Part shown: positions 14,080 to 63,894 of the stretch, one piece after another
Layout: the number at the start of each line of letters is the position of its first letter
Position numbering within the stretch: position 1 is the stretch's first letter
From: an uncultured Victivallaceae bacterium
GTDB taxonomy: Bacteria > Verrucomicrobiota > Lentisphaeria > Victivallales > Victivallaceae
Direction of reading: 5' to 3'
DNA length: 64,000 nucleotides
Assembly: GCA_944389925.1 (NCBI GenBank)
Contig: CALXOD010000051.1
Location: 62,001-126,000, forward strand
Position numbers and translations under genes: made by a program
The notes under the pieces: model-generated
The model's database searches: none
Told to the model about the DNA's origin: nothing
The model's input: the letters and a program-made list of their open reading frames with translations, nothing else

Positions 14080-15111
14080 CTAACACACATCCAACATGAC
14101 GGAACTCCCGTAATTGCTCAGGGTTCCGCAAAGGGAAAGGTTCCGGGCCCGGGACTCGGGAGAATGAATGCGTCGCAGCAATTCCTCCATCGCCAGCCGC
14201 CCCAGCTCACGCCAGTCGAACGTGACGGTGGGAAATACCGGATAATCCGGATTGATCTGGTGCTTTCCATCCGCTGACAGTACCGGAAAATCCTGTTCCA
14301 ATCGTCGCCCGGTTCTTTCGCAATAAGCACAGGAGGCATAATTGAACCAATCGTCAGAAGTAAAAAAATACCCGCATCCCGGTTGGAAATCATAATTAGC
14401 CGGGGAAATCACATCCACAAATTCCGCCCGGCCCCCCAGATCATTCCAGGCTTGAAAAAACAACCGTCCCCGCTGCCGGTAAATCGGCTTGGGACTGGAA
14501 AAAAGCACCACTCGGTTCACGCCGCGGTTAAGAAAATAGTCCACCGCCTTCTTCGCCGTATCATACAAATCGGCATTGACCGTTGACAAACGCCCTCCAT
14601 AGGAGTTGAGCATCAGCATTCCCACGGCCGGGCATGCGGATTCGAAATCCGCCAGATACCAGTCATACGCACTCAGCAGCAACATTCCGTCGCATTGGCG
14701 GCTGGCTTCTCTGAAAAAATCCGTTGAAACAAACCCGCAATGCCGATCCACCACCGACAATTCAAATCCCGCCGGTTCACCGACATCCCGGGCCCCGAGC
14801 AACGCATGATACATCATGCCACCGCCTGCCGGATTGGCTGACGTCTCCATGAAAACGAAAATCTGCCGCCCACCGTCATTGCGCCGGAGCGGACTGCGGC
14901 GGACAAAGAACCCGTGATTGGGCTTCTGCTCCAGCACACCGTTCTCACACAGCCGTTCGAATGCCCGGTAGGTTGTACCGTAGCTTAACTTGAACTTCGC
15001 AGCAAACCGTCGGACGGAAGGCAACACTTCGCCCGGCGAATATTCCCCGGCCAGAATGCGCGATTCTATATAATCCAGCAACCTGGTCGTTGATATCGGA
15101 CTGCGCCCCAC
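14080..15111 (-). CDS. GntR-type regulator with LacI-like sensor domain (paralogue 1)
   Basis: A 343-residue DNA-binding protein. Residues 1-75 form a GntR winged helix (ILAGEYSPGEVLPSVRRFAA, then LSYGTTYRAFERLCENGVLE). The rest resembles a periplasmic-binding-protein sensor of the LacI/AraR kind: STVNADLYDT, NRVVLFSSPKPIYRQRG, GYFFTSDDWF, and a final FPTVTFDWRELGRLAMEEL. Two close paralogues lie at 21172-22176 and 61926-62969. It starts at a GTG at 15111, with GAGGGG 12 bases upstream. It is the last gene of cassette A, downstream of the jelly-roll protein, so it may be co-transcribed with its targets. The ligand is unknown, probably a sugar. Confidence 0.82.
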   Translation of the reverse strand: MGRSPISTTRLLDYIESRILAGEYSPGEVLPSVRRFAAKFKLSYGTTYRAFERLCENGVLEQKPNHGFFVRRSPLRRNDGGRQIFVFMETSANPAGGGMMYHALLGARDVGEPAGFELSVVDRHCGFVSTDFFREASRQCDGMLLLSAYDWYLADFESACPAVGMLMLNSYGGRLSTVNADLYDTAKKAVDYFLNRGVNRVVLFSSPKPIYRQRGRLFFQAWNDLGGRAEFVDVISPANYDFQPGCGYFFTSDDWFNYASCAYCERTGRRLEQDFPVLSADGKHQINPDYPVFPTVTFDWRELGRLAMEELLRRIHSPESRARNLSLCGTLSNYGSSVMLDVC

Positions 15112-15209: not shown

Positions 15210-15974
15210 TTACCGGCGTTCAGAACTTTTCTCCTGCGGGGCGCCGGCTGATGATGCGGCCTCCCGGGATTTATCTGCAGCACCATCCGCATTCAGACGG
15301 GTGATTTTCAAATTATCGAACCACAGTCTGGTACGGAAAGTACGGAACCCGAACCAGCCACCTTCCAGCGGCTGTTCATCTTTGGCAGAAAGCAGCTCCT
15401 TGCCATCCAGGAGGAAGCGCAGGACGCCATTCTGCCGGATCAGCGTAATATGATATACGGTATCGACCCGATTTTCTCCCGCATAGGTTTCCCGCAGCAG
15501 CCGGAAACCTGGGCAGCGCCGGATCCGAATCCGGGCATTCTCCTTGTTCTCACTGGCATTCAAAAAAGTGAAAATATAACCGTTCAGAGGATGATAATCC
15601 GCATAATCGGCATATTTCCGCGTCTGCGTGGATGCCTCCGGTGAACTGCCGTCCGGCATGGAATAGAACAAAAAGAAATTGATATTGTTAGTACCGGTCA
15701 CTGAATTTTCGACGCACACGTCAAAATCAACGCGCACATCCCCGTCGATCCGGGTCCGATTCCAAACCGTGCAGACACCTCCGTTGAGTCCCCCCTTGAT
15801 AAACTCTTCCGGGTCGGCGTCAATATGCAACCTTCCATCCCGAATCGCCACGGAACGACCGCCTTCAACATACCAGTCGCCGGAATCGCGGTCGAATGAA
15901 TCGGAATACAGACATTCCGCACCGGCGGAAATCGCCGCAGCACCCGCCAGCCCGAGCAGAATTTTTCGAACCAT
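15210..15974 (-). CDS. Secreted jelly-roll (concanavalin A-like) protein
   Basis: The product is 254 residues. The N-terminus (MVRKILLGLAGAAAISAGAE) is a signal peptide. The mature part is beta-rich: LYSDSFDRDSGDWYVEGG, RDGRLHIDADP, VRVDFDVCVENSV and a final WFGFRTFRTRLWFDNLKI strand. This matches the concanavalin A-like folds called DUF1961 or DUF6250 that occur beside polysaccharide-degrading enzymes; I cannot choose between them. The last 20 residues are Ala/Ser/Lys-rich and probably unstructured. The ATG at 15974 is chosen; an in-frame TTG six bases earlier has better spacing from AAAGGA. It lies between the pseudopilin and a regulator, probably in one operon. Confidence 0.72.
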   Translation of the reverse strand: MVRKILLGLAGAAAISAGAECLYSDSFDRDSGDWYVEGGRSVAIRDGRLHIDADPEEFIKGGLNGGVCTVWNRTRIDGDVRVDFDVCVENSVTGTNNINFFLFYSMPDGSSPEASTQTRKYADYADYHPLNGYIFTFLNASENKENARIRIRRCPGFRLLRETYAGENRVDTVYHITLIRQNGVLRFLLDGKELLSAKDEQPLEGGWFGFRTFRTRLWFDNLKITRLNADGAADKSREAASSAGAPQEKSSERR

Positions 15975-16052
15975 GTTCAACTCGTTCCTTTCTCGTCTTC
16001 AACTCTGTCTCCGAAAAAATACACCGCGATCCGACATCATGCAACCCGAACT

Positions 16053-16820
16053 TCAGCGCATGGAAACCGGAATATTCGGCTCCGTCGGGAACCATTCATA
16101 CCACTTGTCTCGATATTCTTTATAGTTCCGGGAAGCAGCGTGTCCATCCAGATACACAGCATTGATTTTACCGCCATGGTAATCCGCCAGCGCCGGCACA
16201 TCGAAATATTTATTCACCTCAGCATTCGCCGCAGTATCGCCAGAAGTGGCCCCTTTCGATGGAAAAATAGTCCAAGCATAAGCCGTTCCTGCCAGTTTTT
16301 CGGTTTTGCCGCCCACATGCCAGTAGTAGTAAAACGGCGCAGCACTGTCGATCATATGAATCTTCGAAGAAGCAGCCTTCACTTTGGAGAGTTTCACTCC
16401 GGAATAAATATCTCCCTTGCGTTTCGGATCCGAACTCGGAAAATAACCGCAACGGCAATTGACGGCATAGCCGATCGCCACGGCTTCCCGCTGCATGGCA
16501 GGACACCTCAACGCACTACCGGGTTTGACACGGGTCTGTCCGCCACCAAGCGACTTGGCAAATTCCTGCTGTACATACCAACGATATTTCTCACCGGATG
16601 TTCCCTTGGGATTGGAAGAGGCGAAGAACATCATATCGTCGTAATCCGCGGCATACATCTGTCCGGCGGTACCGACCTGCTTGAGGTTGCTGACACAGCT
16701 GATGGTCTTTGCCGTTTCACGGGCCCGGTTCAACGCGGGCAGCAGCATGGAGGCAAGAATCGCGATGATGGCAATCACCACCAGAAGTTCGATCAGAGTG
16801 AATGACTTCCTGGTTTTCAT
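16053..16820 (-). CDS. Prepilin-like secreted protein with H-X9-DG motif (cassette A)
   Basis: A 255-residue pseudopilin. Residues 7-35 form the type IV prepilin N-terminal helix ([17 protein letters not shown], with the conserved Glu at +5 of the mature form). The residue before the cleavage site is Ser, not the usual Gly. After the helix comes [18 protein letters not shown] and a globular domain, and near the end [12 protein letters not shown], an exact H-X9-DG motif as in prepilin-like families of Lentisphaerota and Planctomycetota. The ATG at 16820 is fixed by alignment with the other two copies in the window. It follows the 1371-residue lyase-like gene by 52 bases, so they are likely co-transcribed. 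The function is unknown; it may help secrete or display polysaccharide-active proteins. Confidence 0.85.
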
Positions 16821-16872: not shown

Positions 16873-19800
16873 TTAATCAATCCGGACAAGATCCCTGCCG
16901 GAAGCAACAAACCACTGCTTCCCGGCAGCCCCCAGCATTGGCGGAACCGGATTCGCTTCTTCGTACTCGTACCCCCCCGCTACTGACGTTTCACCGGTTC
17001 CCGGATCCACCACATACACCCGGCCATCCAGAGCAGCAACCAGCGCCTTGCCATTGCGCATTTTCATGTCAACGACCGGAGCGGCCAGCTTCACGGTTTG
17101 CAGCCGTTTACCGGATACGCCGGTCAACGTCACCAGACCATTGACATTGGCCGCAACGACTCCCGCCGGGGTCAGGGCCAATCCGGCAGCCGGGCCGCCG
17201 AGATTCGCCTGCCAGCCGAGATTGGCCGGATTGCTGGATTCGACATAAAGCCAGCCGTCACTGCGGGCGGCATAAACCATATTCCGTCCATCGCCGGCAT
17301 CACCGATGGCCGAAGCCAGAGTCCGCGGCGAGGTAGTATTGGTCTTGATCATCTTGCCGTCCGGGCCGAGAATGCGGTGGTAATAATATTCCGAACCGGC
17401 GAAAATTTCATCGCGCCCGTCACCGTCCAGATCCCCGGCCGAACCGTTCATGGCGCCGTGCCCCGTGAACATGGTCGCCCAGCGTTCCTTTCCGGCAAAG
17501 TCGAAGGCGAAGTAACGCCACGACTCCGTTCCGACAATGAGGCTCGTCGGTCCTTCCGGACCGTCCAGTTTCGCCGGGAAAATCGTCCGCGGCGCACCGG
17601 GCCGTCTCATATAACCGGGCAATTCCTGTTTCCAGAGTTCCTTTCCGGTATCATCGATCCAGTGCAAAGTACCGGCGGCTTCCACTTCACTGCCGACAGG
17701 ACGGCATCCCACCGCCCAATAATCCCGGTCGCCATCGGCAATCGCCGCCACCGCGGACACTTCTTCCGGCAACCGGATCCGGGCCGTTTCCCGGCCGTCT
17801 CCGTCGATCAGCAGAAACGTTCCATCCTGCAGCCCGACGCCGAGCGCCTGACGCCCACTGCCTACCGCCGTCACCGGAGCGGCGAAGGAAACCGCAGCCC
17901 GAACCTCCGGATTCTTTTCCGCCCGCGCGACCGGCGTTACCGGAGCGGAAGCCGCCTGCCGCCGCAGCGCCGCAAGATCCGCAGTCATTTTTCCGGTAGC
18001 CACAGTGCCGCCGGGGGCGGCGAACAGCGCCGCGCCCTTCCCGTCCAGCACCGCGATCCGCCCGTCGGCGGCAAATACATTTTTCGCAATCCGGCGGATG
18101 GCCACCGGTTTTTCATCGGCCCCCAGATCCTTGAAATAGAAGGCGAAGACCTCCCGTTCACCGGGCTGAAGTTTCGCGTCCTTCCAGAACACCCGCGTCC
18201 GGGTCAAGCCGTCGGAAAAGCGGAATCCCGCCAGATTGCCGCTCTTCCCGCCGCGTCCATGCGAACGTTCCAGCTCCGAAATGCCGAATGCGGTCGAACC
18301 GGTTCCTTCCGCCATGGAGAAGCGGTTGCGGTCATTCGGATTGGAAGCATCCGGCTTCTGCGTTACGACCACGCCCTGAAGCGCGTCTTCCGTTTCGCCG
18401 GTGGTGCGCCAGCGCGACGAGAAACGATAATCCCCCGCCGTGCGCGCCACAAATTCATCGATCACCCACAGACCGCCGTCAGCCTCCCAGCCGTAATGCC
18501 GGTAATAGTCGACACCGTTATTGTTTTCCAGCAGCAGAGACACCGCCGCCTGCTTCCGGTCCGGACGCTGGGCGGAACCGACAAGCTGGGCGAAGCGTTC
18601 GGTTTTCGGGATCCGGTTCCGGCGGCGCTCCGCGGCAACCCCGTCACGCACCACCGACGCCAGATTGTGGTCCTCGGCAAAACGCCGGATATAATCGCCT
18701 TCAAAAAGCCAGAGATGGTTGCCGATCAGATACTGACTGACCCCGATCCCGTCATCGTGACCATGCGGCGATCCATTCAGACCGTTCACTGCCAGAAACT
18801 CCGCCCCGGGCTCCCAGGAAGAACGGAAAATCGCTTTGTCCAGCGGCGGATATTTCGCCGGCGACAATCCGATCAACCGCTGCCGGACCGGACTGACCGT
18901 AAAGGTCCGCAATCCCAGGTAACGCGAATCCGACGGCGCCGGAAGATCCGCCGGCACGCCCCATTCGGCACATTTGTCAGCATAAAAACCGGCCTCCGGA
19001 TTTGTCCGGCGAATTAACGAAAGAATCGCCCAGGCTTCAGGGTCTCCGGTAATTTCATAGTTTTCGTACAACGGCACAAAACCGCCGCGCATACCGATGA
19101 CATTTGCGTCGCCGTAGCCCGCGGTATAGCCGAGGTGATTAAAAGACATCTTGGCATAATCCATATATTCCCGAAAGGCGGGCGAATGAAACAGCGCGGC
19201 ATCCGCCTTGCCGGTCGCCAGCATGTAATCCGTAAAAATCCGATATACCAGATACTGGTATCCGCCCGCGTCCTCGGGCGACAGCGGATAGGACCGCACC
19301 CCTTCAAACGTATTTGCCGCCACGGCCCGGAAATAATCGGTCCCCGGCAAGTTCGTGCGGGCAGCCAGATACCGCGCCGCACCGTCCACGGTCCGCGAAG
19401 CGAAGCAATAGTGGTTGGTCTGGTATTTCTGCCGACCATACCGATACAACTCCACCGGCGTCAGCATTTCCCAGGTTTTCATGGCATCCTCCGCCACCCG
19501 CCGGCAGAGTTCCGCTGCGCGGCGGCGATCCTCCGCAGTCAGCGCCGGAGAATGTTCAAATGTATACAGATACTGCGGGAATTGATGGAATTCGAAGGTC
19601 GGCGGCATACCGTTGCTGTACTGCAACGCCGTTTCATAGTGATCCAACAGGATTTTCAGCATATCGCCGAAAGCGCGGACATAGCGTTCATCCCCCGTGG
19701 AGCGGAAGGCCAGAAACGCATTTTTCATATGAACATCGATCGTCAGATTAATCTGCCGCGCCTGCCGTCCGGAAAAAAATTCCTGAACGGTTTTCACCAG

Positions 19801-20988
19801 TTCTTCCGGAGTCGGAAATTCCTCTGTGCGGGAATCGAAACTCCAGTAAGTCAACGCTTCCGGCCCGGAAAAACGTTCCGTCAGCTTCCGCACGGCCTCC
19901 ATGATCTCCGCTTCGTTGCGTCCCCCCACATAAACCGCACCGCGATGCCAGTCCATTACTTCCGGCCAGACCCGGACCTCCGCTCCCTGCGGTGGACGCC
20001 GCAGCTGCAAATTGGCTGCCAGTTCCCGCATCGGGTTATTGCTCATCCCCGAACCGCACAGAATCAGATTTTCACGTCCATCCCCGTGATTGGCTACGGC
20101 CCGGATCGGCAGCTTTACCCCCCAAGCCTGCGCCAATGCCGCCTGAACCGCAGTCGCAATCCGCATACCGTTCGCCCCTTCCGGCGGCACGATTACCGCC
20201 TGGCGCATGTTCATGGAAGCAGCCGGCATTACCGGCTGGAAATCATCTCCGAACGGCTGCGACGGCACCGGTTGCAGACGTCCTGCCGAAGCGACTGTCG
20301 CTGCCGAATCCTGCTGCAATTTCGCCAGCTCTGCCGGACTCAGCGCATGACTCCAGATCGAAAGATCGTCAACCAGTCCGTACAGTGCTTTCCCCGCGCT
20401 ACTGGAAGCAGCTCCGAGATAGAGGCTGTCTCCGCGGGGCAATGCCTGATCCAGCGTCCTTTTTCCCATATCCCGGCCGTCGATCCGAAGTGCAACCTGC
20501 CGGCCGGCCAATGTCATTACCACTTCATGCCACTTTCCGGCAAAATTCTTCGGCAAGGCGAAAGCCATCGGCTTGGCTCCGCCTCGCGGCGCGAACACCA
20601 GCACATTCCGCGTCGGCTGGTATTCCAGAGCCCAGGAGCCATACCGGTAAAGCAACGTCTGTGCAGCCTTGCACTTCGCATCCGGCCGAAAATAAAAATG
20701 AACCGACCAGTTCCCGGAAAAATCCGGCAGCACATTTTCCCGGAAATAAACAAACCCGCCCTCCAGTTGCAAAGCCTGTCGACTGCGTTTCGCCAGTTCC
20801 TGCGGAGCGGCATTCGCATATTTCACCCCGCCCTCCGGACCGCGGAACGACCCGATCACGCCTGAGGGCAGAACCCCTTTCACACCACCGGGAGCGTTTT
20901 CCTCAAAATCACAGTACAACTCCAGCGTTGCCTGTGCCGCCACACCGGCCAGCAACGTCAGGAGTCCCAGCACTCGTTTCATTCGCAT
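16873..20988 (-). CDS. Large secreted LamG / heparinase II-III-like / beta-propeller protein (cassette A)
   Basis: A 1371-residue exported protein with a signal peptide (about 1-19). Domains in order: a LamG jelly roll (about 22-230, [30 protein letters not shown]); an alpha/beta domain like the N-terminal domain of GH67/GH20 enzymes (about 255-365); an alpha-toroid (about 370-660); a heparinase II/III-like beta sandwich ([20 protein letters not shown], then [10 protein letters not shown] with His near 741-743); and a C-terminal propeller-like region from about 1040 ([28 protein letters not shown]). The HGH motif and toroid suggest an active polysaccharide lyase; the substrate is unknown. It is the first gene of cassette A, with a promoter and a phased repeat array upstream. 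Related proteins are at 34089 and 49633. Confidence 0.8.
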
Positions 20989-21042
20989 GATTTACCCTCA
21001 GTCTTTTTCATCAGTTCATACAACTGTTTGCATCCAGTCATA

Positions 21043-21071
21043 ATTTTAATGAAAAAACACTGAAAGGACAA
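21043..21071 (-). promoter_or_regulatory. Promoter of cassette A
   Basis: On the minus strand TTGTCC (21071-21066) and TAAAAT (21048-21043) are exactly 17 bp apart. The predicted transcript would start near 21036, giving a leader of about 48 bases before the ATG at 20988. The GGATC repeat array ends 30 bp upstream of the -35 box, a position that suits an activator. Confidence 0.6.
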
Positions 21072-21101
21072 ATCGCAGAGGCCTTTTCCAGGGAAAATAC
21101 C

Positions 21102-21148
21102 GATCCAAACATGATCCAATCGATCCATAAAAAACGGACCATGATCCA
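21102..21148 (-). repeat. Phased GGATC(A/G) direct repeats, candidate operator of cassette A
   Basis: TGGATC occurs four times on the minus strand, beginning at 21148, 21127, 21118 and 21107, so the offsets are 0, 21, 30 and 41 bp, close to whole helical turns. A weaker GGTCCG copy sits in the 21-bp gap. The array lies between the upstream regulator gene and the promoter at 21043-21071. A matching array upstream of the cassette C pseudopilin supports a regulatory role. A further imperfect repeat containing AAAAAACGGA is interleaved (near 21129 and 21159). Confidence 0.6.
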
Positions 21149-21171
21149 TTTTGCTCCAAAAAAACGGAAGA

Positions 21172-22176
21172 TCAAGGCATAATCAGTTTACCGCAAAGAC
21201 TTTGGCTTCTTCCGGAAGACTCTGGATCATTCAAACGGCGGTATAACTCTTCTAATGCCGCCCGGCCGACTTCGCACCAGTCGAGGGCAATGGTGGGAAA
21301 CCGATGATACTCCGGATTAATCAGCCGTTTCCCATCGACCCCGAGGACGAGATGATGCTCGGACAGCGGCACGCCGTTCCGTGCCTTGTACCATTCGGAA
21401 ACCTGCTGCAACATCTGATCGGAAGTGAAAAAATATCCCACACCGGCCTCAAAATTCAATCGTTCTTCCGGCATTCCGGTAATGAGCTCCACTTTTCCCC
21501 CCACAGCTCGGACTTCGTCGCAATAGCGTTGGGCAATCGCCATGAAAATCGGTCGGATACTGGTATACACCACATGCCGCTTGACCACCGCCCGGCCGAA
21601 AAAGTCAAAAGCCTGCATCACCGTATCGTAAATATCGATATTCACCGTGGATACCTGTCCGTTGTAGGCGCGCAGCATCAGAATGCCCGCTGCCGGACAG
21701 GGCAGCTGCATCGACCACATTTTCCAATCGTAACTGCCGATGAAAATCAATCCCGCCACACTGGCGGCCATCTCTCTCACCAGATCCTCGGTCAGCCGGT
21801 CACAATGCACATAGAAAATCTTCAAGGAAATGTTGTGCTCCGCCGCAGCGGAACGGATCCCCAGCAGTGCATGATAACAGAGAAAACCGGAGTTGATCTT
21901 CTCATTGCTCACCTCCAGCACCACACCAACCCGGATGCCGAAATCATCGGCGGCTGGCGGAGCTTTCACAAAAAAACCGTCCCCGAGACGTTTCTCCAGC
22001 CAGCCTTCCGTGCACAGCCGTTCCATCGTCCGGTAAGCGGTCCCATAGCTGAGATCGAACCGTCCTGCCAGGCGTCGTACCGAGGGCAGCAGCTCTCCCG
22101 CCCGAAAAGTTCCGGCCAGAATCCGGGTCTCCAGATATTGAACCAGACGATCCGAATCAGCTTTGCGGCGTCCCAT
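21172..22176 (-). CDS. GntR-type regulator with LacI-like sensor domain (paralogue 2)
   Basis: A 334-residue paralogue of the regulators at 14080 and 61926. The winged helix has TFRAGELLPSVRRLAGRF, LSYGTAYRTMERLCTEGWLE and GDGFFVK. The sensor part keeps the family landmarks: YHALLGIRSA, STVNIDIYDT, GYFFTSDQML, VLGVDGKRLINPEY and FPTIALDWCEVGRAALEEL, ending SLCGKL. The ATG at 22176 overlaps the end of the DUF349 gene by 20 bases, so translation is probably coupled. It lies directly upstream of cassette A, and the phased GGATC array begins 24 bases past its stop codon. I infer that it, or paralogue 1, binds this array. Confidence 0.84.
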   Translation of the reverse strand: MGRRKADSDRLVQYLETRILAGTFRAGELLPSVRRLAGRFDLSYGTAYRTMERLCTEGWLEKRLGDGFFVKAPPAADDFGIRVGVVLEVSNEKINSGFLCYHALLGIRSAAAEHNISLKIFYVHCDRLTEDLVREMAASVAGLIFIGSYDWKMWSMQLPCPAAGILMLRAYNGQVSTVNIDIYDTVMQAFDFFGRAVVKRHVVYTSIRPIFMAIAQRYCDEVRAVGGKVELITGMPEERLNFEAGVGYFFTSDQMLQQVSEWYKARNGVPLSEHHLVLGVDGKRLINPEYHRFPTIALDWCEVGRAALEELYRRLNDPESSGRSQSLCGKLIMP

Positions 22177-61925: not shown

Positions 61926-62969
61926 ATGGGACAAATCTCTCCGTTTGCCACAGGCCTGATACATTACGTTGAATCCCGTATTATTTCAGGCGAGTATCCG
62001 ATCGGCAGCAAACTGCCTTCTATCCGCCGTCTGGCTGCGAAATTCCACTTGAGTTTTGGTACGGCATACCGTGCCATTCACACCTTGCAGGAACGCGGCC
62101 TGATTGAACAACGCGGCACAGCAGGGCTCTTCGTAAAATCCCATCGCTTGATCGCAGGAGGCAATGCCGGAGTCTTCACGGTATTGATCGGCCCCGCGCT
62201 GCTGCAAACCACCGGACTTTTCCATGCCGCCTATCTGGGGGTGGAAAAAGCGGTCATGCGCCATCATTACCAGCTGCAGGTCCATTATGTGGCAATCGAC
62301 AAACTCACGCCGGAAAAACTCCGCCAGACAGCGGTGGAATCAGACGGGCTCCTGCTGCTGTGTGAATACGATCAGTATCTGCGGGAATTCCCGGTACTGC
62401 CCTGCCCGGTCGTGGCCCTGCTCTCGGCTAACTCCTGGAACGGACTGATTTCCACCGTGAACATCGATGCGGACGATGCGGCCTGTACTGCCGCGAAATA
62501 TTTCCGGGAAGCCCGCTCCTGGCTGCGGGAAGTCAAGGTTTTTTCCAGCCCCAAGCCGGTTTACGTCGCCCGGGCGCTGGCCTTCGAAAGCCGGTGGCGG
62601 CATCTGGGCGGGCGGTGCGAAGTCCGCATCGGTTATCCGGATGAAAATCAGACTTACCGGGAGGACTGCGGTTATTACTTCACCTCTGACCAATGGCTGC
62701 AGAATGCCTCGGCTGACTTTTTCCGGATCCATCAGGTGGAGCCGGCGCAGAAATACGCCATGCTCGGCGTAGACGGCAAACAGTTTCTTGATCCTGATTT
62801 TTTCCATTTTCCCACCATTGCGGCGGACTGGCCGCAAATGGGCGAAATCATGGTCAACGAACTGATCCGCCGCCGGAATGAACCGGAGCTGGGGGCCCGC
62901 AATATCAGTGTCTGCGGCAAACTGCGTTTGCCAAACACCCTTGAATCAGCCTCTCCTGAATCAGCTTAA
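61926..62969 (+). CDS. GntR-type regulator with LacI-like sensor domain (paralogue 3, cassette C)
   Basis: A 347-residue paralogue of the regulators at 14080 and 21172. The winged helix has ISGEYPIGSKLPSIRRLAAKF, LSFGTAYRAIHTLQERGLIE and GTAGLFVK. The sensor part keeps YLGVEKAVMRH, STVNIDADDAAC, VKVFSSPKPVYVARA, CGYYFTSDQWL, MLGVDGKQFLDPDF and FPTIAADWPQMGEIMVNEL, with the family ending ISVCGKL. The ATG at 61926 has AGGA 11 bases upstream. The pseudopilin gene follows after 184 bases that hold the phased GGATCA array and a promoter, so this regulator is the natural candidate to act there. The ligand is unknown. Confidence 0.85.
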   Translation: MGQISPFATGLIHYVESRIISGEYPIGSKLPSIRRLAAKFHLSFGTAYRAIHTLQERGLIEQRGTAGLFVKSHRLIAGGNAGVFTVLIGPALLQTTGLFHAAYLGVEKAVMRHHYQLQVHYVAIDKLTPEKLRQTAVESDGLLLLCEYDQYLREFPVLPCPVVALLSANSWNGLISTVNIDADDAACTAAKYFREARSWLREVKVFSSPKPVYVARALAFESRWRHLGGRCEVRIGYPDENQTYREDCGYYFTSDQWLQNASADFFRIHQVEPAQKYAMLGVDGKQFLDPDFFHFPTIAADWPQMGEIMVNELIRRRNEPELGARNISVCGKLRLPNTLESASPESA

Positions 62970-63026: not shown

Positions 63027-63052
63027 GGATCAATCTGAATCACCTTGGATCA
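63027..63052 (+). repeat. Three GGATCA/GAATCA direct repeats at exactly 10-bp steps, candidate operator of cassette C
   Basis: GGATCA at 63027, GAATCA at 63037 and GGATCA at 63047 are on one face of the helix. The last copy ends 30 bp before the -35 box at 63083, the same distance (within 1 bp) as in the cassette A array on the minus strand at 21102-21148. Confidence 0.6.
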
Positions 63053-63082
63053 GATTCCCCTCCGTTTTCATCTGCAGGAGTC

Positions 63083-63111
63083 TTGTGTGCCGGGATTTTC
63101 TTTTCTATAAT
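63083..63111 (+). promoter_or_regulatory. Promoter of the cassette C pseudopilin
   Basis: TTGTGT (63083-63088) and a perfect TATAAT (63106-63111) are 17 bp apart; the predicted start near 63118 leaves a leader of about 36 bases with CAGGAG before the ATG at 63154. The non-consensus -35 fits a promoter that needs an activator. Confidence 0.65.
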
Positions 63112-63153: not shown

Positions 63154-63894
63154 ATGATGAAACGGTCCCCTTTCACACTGATTGAACTGCTGGTCGTTAT
63201 TGCGATCATCGCCATTCTGGCCGGCATGCTGCTGCCCGCACTCAACAATGCCCGGGAAAAGGCCAAAGCGATCAGTTGTGCTAACAATCTCAGGCAGATC
63301 GGCTTTTCTCTGATACAATACACCATGGCCAATGATGAATATGTCTGCTGGGGATTCAGCGGCAAGCTGCCGAATGGACTGACTGGAAATTTTCACGCTT
63401 TTTTATATCCCTATCTTGGCGGCGGCTCCTATCCGACCGACCGAATCACTGAAAAAAAGCCATTCTATTTCGCTCCATTTATCTGCCCGACGCAGCGTTC
63501 CCTTCGATATTACACCAATGACTATGCCGTTTCCAATTACGGGTACAATGCGCGTGGCGTAGATGCCGGCGGCAGGGTGTTCTTCGGTTATTCCACAACT
63601 TACCGATCCAATAAAATCAGTAAATTGAAAATGCCTACAAAGATGTTTGCATTCGCAGATGGCCGTCTTAATATCAGTCGTTCAACCACCGTCAATTCGG
63701 CAACAGACTGGAACGGAGGTGGGGTACCGATTTCGGACAGTCCCACGGATGTCGCAGAACTCCGGCACAGCGGAAAAATTAATGCCGTGTTTTTTGATGC
63801 CCATGTGGAATCCCGCACGGTATACGAAAGACCCTGCAGTTCAATCGTGACCAATGATATGAATCTGCTAATGCGTGGACAGTTACTTTACTGA
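63154..63894 (+). CDS. Prepilin-like secreted protein (cassette C)
   Basis: A 246-residue pseudopilin. Residues 7-35 form the prepilin helix ([19 protein letters not shown]) followed by [19 protein letters not shown]. The residue before the cleavage site is Pro. The late motif is [17 protein letters not shown], an H-X9-D-Ala variant of H-X9-DG. The globular part has many Tyr and Asn residues. The ATG at 63154 (or the next codon) has CAGGAG 5 bases upstream. It is the first gene after a phased repeat array and promoter. The next gene of the cassette would lie beyond the window; the last 106 bases show nothing coding. Confidence 0.85.

Follow-up and report, generated by a model that had tools for sequence, protein, structure and literature searches.

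Phased direct repeats upstream of promoters beside GntR/LacI-type regulators in a Victivallaceae bacterium

Class I activators such as MalT and CRP bind sites that lie on one face of the DNA, at a fixed helical distance upstream of the -35 element. Among GntR-type proteins, AraR of Bacillus subtilis fuses a GntR winged helix to a GalR/LacI-type sensor and binds in-phase sites cooperatively (PMC4494728, PMC4218819); these sites are 16-bp palindromes, and AraR is a repressor (PMC4218819, PMC4494728). NanR of Escherichia coli, a FadR-type GntR protein, is reported to bind a tandem (GGTATA)3 operator cooperatively as three dimers (PMC8012715). The GntR-type MocR subfamily (GabR, PdxR, and TauR) represses itself and activates neighboring genes through direct repeats, many of them interspersed with inverted repeats; the direct ones have been ascribed to head-to-tail dimers with long spacers (PMC5320631).

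The locus compared here lies in a window of 64,000 nucleotides on contig C51 of G000, the genome of an uncultured Victivallaceae bacterium assembled from metagenomic data (2.8 Mb). This genome encodes 28 full-length paralogs of the regulators in question, and the comparison covers the flanks of these paralogs and their orthologs, with several class assignments made after the data had been seen. A literature search for these regulators in Lentisphaerae found no paper.

Regulators and gene cassettes

The proteins encoded at 21172 (regulator A), 14080, and 61926 (regulator B) are GntR winged-helix proteins whose C-terminal domain scores just under the Pfam cut-off as Peripla_BP_3 (23.2 versus 26.5). 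Membership in the GntR superfamily is supported by a match to PF00392 (E of 9e-12; 44.9 bits against a cut-off of 27). The AlphaFold2 model of regulator A (mean pLDDT of 89) has LacI-family sensors as its top Foldseek matches in the PDB (E of ~1e-13), which identifies a LacI/GalR-type sensor. Its C terminus is modeled as LacI-like alternating strands and helices and not as the alpha-helical FCD-type domain of NanR and FadR, and Pfam found no aminotransferase class I-like C-terminal domain of the MocR kind. The AraR palindromic operator, At(T/A)tGTaCGTAcaa(A/T)T, has no counterpart in the two repeat arrays described below (arrays A and B), which are direct repeats without this consensus.

Regulators A and B are each encoded directly upstream of their own array and its presumed target (Table 1). 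Array A lies in the 183-bp intergene between the regulator A stop codon and the start of the next gene, both on the minus strand. The presumed targets encode a secreted protein with a LamG-like domain and proteins resembling pseudopilins, to be set beside the arabinose genes that AraR controls; no name could be obtained for the product of the gene behind array A beyond its LamG-like domain. No array was found in the flanks examined for regulator 14080, which may share array A, since its recognition helix is nearly identical to that of regulator A and it lies at the far end of the cluster behind that array.

Table 1. Features of the two cassettes and direct repeats beside SY-class paralogs
Feature	Position	Strand	Detail	Basis
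Array A	21102..21148	-	four TGGATC	sequence; copy statistics
Degenerate words, possible weak extra repeats (speculative)	21136..21157	-	GGTCC 21136-21140; GGAGC 21153-21157	sequence
Sigma70-like promoter of gene 16873-20988	21043..21071	-	TTGTCC-17-TAAAAT	consensus match only
Regulator A	21172..22176	-	334 aa; GntR winged helix (residues 9-70) and LacI-like sensor; helix LSYGTAYRT	Pfam, model, Foldseek
First gene behind array A, presumed target	16873..20988	-	1371-aa protein	apparent signal peptide, LamG-like domain
Pseudopilin-like DUF1559 protein, next downstream; possible operon partner	16053..16814	-		N-terminal methylation motif
DUF6250 protein, further downstream; possible operon partner	15210..15980	-		domain search
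Regulator paralog 14080	14080..15111	-	helix LSYGTTYRA	42% identical to regulator A
Regulator B	61926..62969	+	helix LSFGTAYRA	37% identical to regulator A
Array B	63027..63056	+	GGATCAATCT GAATCACCTT GGATCAGATT; three 10-bp repeats	sequence; conserved in G002
Sigma70-like promoter of gene 63154-63894	63083..63111	+	TTGTGT-17-TATAAT	sequence
Pseudopilin-like DUF1559 protein, presumed target of array B	63154..63894	+	H-X9-DG C-terminal motif	domain search
L005 repeats			TGGATCAAAGGTTGATCA	
L006 repeats			TGATCAGTCTGATCAG; helix SYGSTLN	
L009 repeats			TGATCAGATTGATCA	
L015 repeats			AATCACTTCAATCA	
L011 repeats			AATCACTGCAATCAGAAAATCAG	
L007 repeats			AGATCAGATAGATCA	
L014 repeats			TGATCTAAACTGATCT	

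The gene behind array A is more conserved than its surroundings. Positions 17512 to 21036 of the window are 98.7 to 99.8% identical in two sister species (loci L108 and L109), and the flanking DNA is only ~85% identical. The contigs of both sister species stop exactly at 21036, beside the predicted transcription start, and the high identity may reflect recent gene exchange or mis-binned contigs. Beyond the equivalent of window position 16875, sister contig G001:C97 (L112:1-222) opens with what we guess from its sequence to be a transposase-like reading frame.

Two repeat arrays at similar distances from their promoters

The original prediction described four minus-strand copies of TGGATC at offsets of 0, 21, 30, and 41 bp, the nearest lying 30 bp from the -35 of TTGTCC-17-TAAAAT. 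A base-exact re-reading located the same copies at 21148-21143, 21127-21122, 21118-21113, and 21107-21102 (successive spacings of 21, 9, and 11 bp), and recomputing the distance between the final C of the array and the -35 again gave 30. The gaps from the four copies to the -35 are 71, 50, 41, and 30, with TTGTCC at 21071-21066, TAAAAT at 21048-21043, and transcription of gene 16873-20988 predicted to start at ~21036. The span first given, 21043-21148, includes the promoter as well as the array, which occupies 21102-21148.

This density of TGGATC is rare. None of 20,000 order-1 Markov sequences modeled on the 183-bp intergene contained at least three copies within 47 bp, and array A was the sole such site in 451,512 sampled bases of the genome, in agreement with the earlier judgment that chance is an unlikely source. 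When any 6-mer was allowed, at least four separate copies within 47 bp occurred in the 451-kb sample only at array A and at one GGCGGCATG-type repeat. The five-letter word GGATC is not rare by itself: it occurs 237 times in the window against 219 expected, and triplets with gaps of up to 30 gave 30 pattern matches across the 2.8-Mb genome, coding and noncoding DNA pooled. Equally dense clusters elsewhere, which would have spoken against the arrays, did not turn up for TGGATC in the 451-kb sample; it is the density of TGGATC beside a promoter that is rare.

Array B reads CGGATC-TGAATC-TGGATC, with gaps of 51, 41, and 31 to its -35. The original prediction of a common repeat word and an equal promoter distance for the two arrays is accordingly borne out in looser form: the words are related, but what they share is (G/A)ATC(A) and not strictly TGGATC or GGATC, and the distances are nearly equal, at 30 bp for A and 31 bp for B. 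Compared with its ortholog in a sister species (G002), array B differs in 3 of 30 columns, versus 35 of 87 in its flanks (Fisher p of 0.0014), so that the array has been kept where the flanks diverged. Two of the differences are GGATC-to-GAATC changes that swap which repeat bears the G; the layout of three repeats at 10 bp is kept while single words turn over. The same comparison could not be made for array A because no intact ortholog of its intergene was found: in the two sister species, contigs break off at 21036 toward the gene and at 21256 or 21838 toward the regulator.

Repeats and promoter distance across the regulator family

Paralogs with a recognition helix of the form S/C-Y/F-(G/S/T), here called the SY class, often have direct (G/A)ATC(A) repeats 9 to 11 bp apart near a sigma70-like promoter. 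Measured between the last (G/A)ATC and the -35 hexamer, at promoters with a 17-bp spacer, the gap is 30 at array A, L005, L006, L009, L015, and a promoter on contig C62; it is 31 at array B and its sister-species counterpart, and 30 beside the orthologs of regulator B and L006 in another genus (G026). By the time L015, L011, and the sites of G026 were measured, the 30-bp rule had already been noticed; the values were 30 for L015 and G026 and 33 for L011. Second and third repeats outward have gaps of 39 to 41 and 50 to 51. If transcription starts 7 bp past the -10, the repeat cores fall near -68, -78, and -88, all on the same face of the helix. A constant spacing of this kind (30 to 31 bp), in helical register with the -35, characterizes the upstream sites of class I activators; L011, L007 (28/19/7), and L014 (~40 by hand count) are exceptions. 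These other distances count against the arrays being operators of the adjacent regulators, as does the lack of an array at 14080 and at L004, both of which have the helix type of arrayed members; in the flanks examined, arrays were also absent from L012 and L020.

The shared operator logic proposed for arrays A and B thus extends to phased (G/A)ATC(A) repeats 30 to 31 bp from the -35 at L005, L006, L009, and L015, and the same repeats occur beside the sister-species orthologs of L005, L006, L015, and regulator B and beside two regulators of the other genus. The arrays of L005, L006, L007, and L015 form conserved islands in ortholog alignments. To gauge specificity we used a combined pattern, GATC-N5..8-(G/A)ATC-N15..45-TTG-N20-TA(A/T)AAT (gap free from 15 to 45), which, being partly derived from its own matches, gives no independent p-value. 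Its six matches in G000 all adjoin paralogs (L007, L005, L009, A, B, and L006), and most of the other 99 genomes contain none or one.

Chance, a composition artifact, or a GATC methylation cluster might still be invoked, given that GATC pairs 9 to 11 bp apart are present in 20% of 470-bp windows. This frequency is also why a loose test gave no significant difference (p of 0.07) when SY paralogs were compared with the rest for any (G/A)ATC pair at that spacing nearby. We nevertheless regard such an origin as highly improbable in view of the density, promoter distance, and conservation of the repeats. Methylation is further opposed by array B, in which GATC itself is dispensable: GAATC stands in for GGATC, and in the sister species their positions are exchanged. 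No D12-type (Dam-like) methylase, the family searched for, was found in the genome, and a Dam-type methylation cluster was set aside.

A different regulator, shared among these promoters and only incidentally close to the paralogs, could explain why one word class is common to several of them. It would also suit the C62 promoter, where TGRATCTATTGRATC stands 30 bp from the -35 and no SY-class regulator directly adjoins. We consider this improbable, since all six full-pattern matches adjoin paralogs and the word tracks the recognition helix: TGGATC accompanies the arrayed TAYR helices (A, B, and G026), TGATCA or AATCA the other arrayed helices, and non-SY paralogs use other words. The C62 DUF1559 pseudopilin gene is a candidate target in trans; TG(G/A)ATCTATTG(G/A)ATC precedes it and is conserved in three species (L263:8819-8892 on G000:C62, L160, and L175). 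Elsewhere in the genome, TGAATCCATATGAATC at G000:C43:42382-42397 and in its orthologs is conserved in three species near promoter-like sequence, in the orientation opposite to that of the other arrays.

In G026, the ortholog of regulator B (53% identical) and a second GntR/LacI-like regulator are divergently oriented, and the intergene between them (L167:3120-3230) is crowded with TGGATCA words facing both ways. The G026 regulators were searched for with a 70-aa probe whose final 20 residues were an approximation; it still matched the intended regulator at 86% identity, and the list of matches carries that qualification. A scan for 9- to 11-bp spacings across G026 GntR regulators gave no clear overall peak, because most matches there are more distant paralogs; repeats appeared only at L267/L270 (SY) and L271.

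Proposed mechanism and comparison with known systems

A position upstream of the promoter with repeats on one helical face is usual for activators that contact RNA polymerase. We consider it likely that the arrays are cooperative operators of the adjacent regulator, in an activator-like position in the SY class. Several GntR/LacI-type subunits would assemble along the (G/A)ATC(A) words, either head to tail or in the form of overlapping dimers; with the words recurring about once per helical turn, the bound subunits would lie on one DNA face. In the SY class, the array end 30 to 31 bp upstream of the -35 would allow bound protein to touch RNA polymerase and activate the cassette gene. We infer binding, activation, and a sugar ligand, the LacI-like domain probably sensing a carbohydrate that triggers activation.

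The arrays could instead be operators from which the adjacent regulators repress by looping or wrapping the upstream DNA, with sugar releasing the protein as in B. subtilis AraR. AraR, the characterized protein of the same architecture, argues against activation, as it represses on palindromes through in-phase cooperative sites (PMC4218819), and the promoter-distal position of the arrays also fits a looping repressor. In addition, the promoters of the regulators themselves hold further sites: at L005, L006, L009, L014, and L015, another (G/A)ATC follows the -10 or precedes the start codon. Target promoters A and B lack a second site past the -10, however, and the fixed 30 to 31 bp suits polymerase contact more than blocking, which makes repression at these arrays unlikely.

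Paralogs with other recognition helices bear on the same question. A scan for imperfect 8-bp direct repeats in 20 paralog promoters found spacings of 9, 10, and 11 bp in 5, 5, and 3 regions against ~0.5 expected for each, other spacings from 7 to 25 bp being near expectation save 21 bp (two turns). The non-SY paralogs L017, L018, L023, L025, L026, and L028, together with G026 L271 (the ortholog of L017), have different 10- to 11-bp direct repeats, for example GAACACTTTGGAGCAC, CTAACAGATGCTAACAGAT, and GGACACTTTGGGACA. These lie just downstream of the -10, where they would favor repression; the L016 repeat is placed upstream, unlike most in non-SY paralogs. In this exploratory comparison, the placements suggest that one protein family may activate or repress according to array position.

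A bolder scheme is possible, and we offer it tentatively. These proteins would be lineage-specific GntR/LacI chimeras that forgo twofold palindromes and form head-to-tail polymers on ~10-bp repeats; a few helix residues would set the word and promoter side the sign, with upstream SY arrays activating and arrays downstream of the -10 repressing, each regulator serving its own secreted or pseudopilin cassette. If the operator reading is true, it supplies a rule for the operators of a large family of regulators, in a bacterial class whose gene regulation has hardly been described, and target genes of gut-type Lentisphaeria cassettes become predictable from sequence. The 28 paralogs would then form a natural series in which helix and DNA word co-vary, helping to learn how GntR-type proteins read direct repeats.

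Each described system resembles this one in part. The regulators have the GntR and LacI-type architecture of AraR, but their arrays are nonpalindromic direct repeats, spaced 9 to 11 bp and placed upstream of the -35; their recognition helix is SYGTAYR-like and not the usual SRTTVR-like. NanR likewise has a tandem-repeat operator but differs in its sensor domain, its repeat word, and its action as a repressor, and the MocR proteins carry an aminotransferase-like PLP sensor that is absent here. Like the sites of MalT and CRP, the arrays lie upstream of the -35 at a constant distance in helical register with it; those activators belong to unrelated protein families, and activation here is our reading of that position. 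Direct-repeat operators of GntR-type proteins are already known from NanR and MocR, and what is new is that tandem repeats resembling those of NanR, placed at a constant distance upstream, are combined with a protein resembling AraR.
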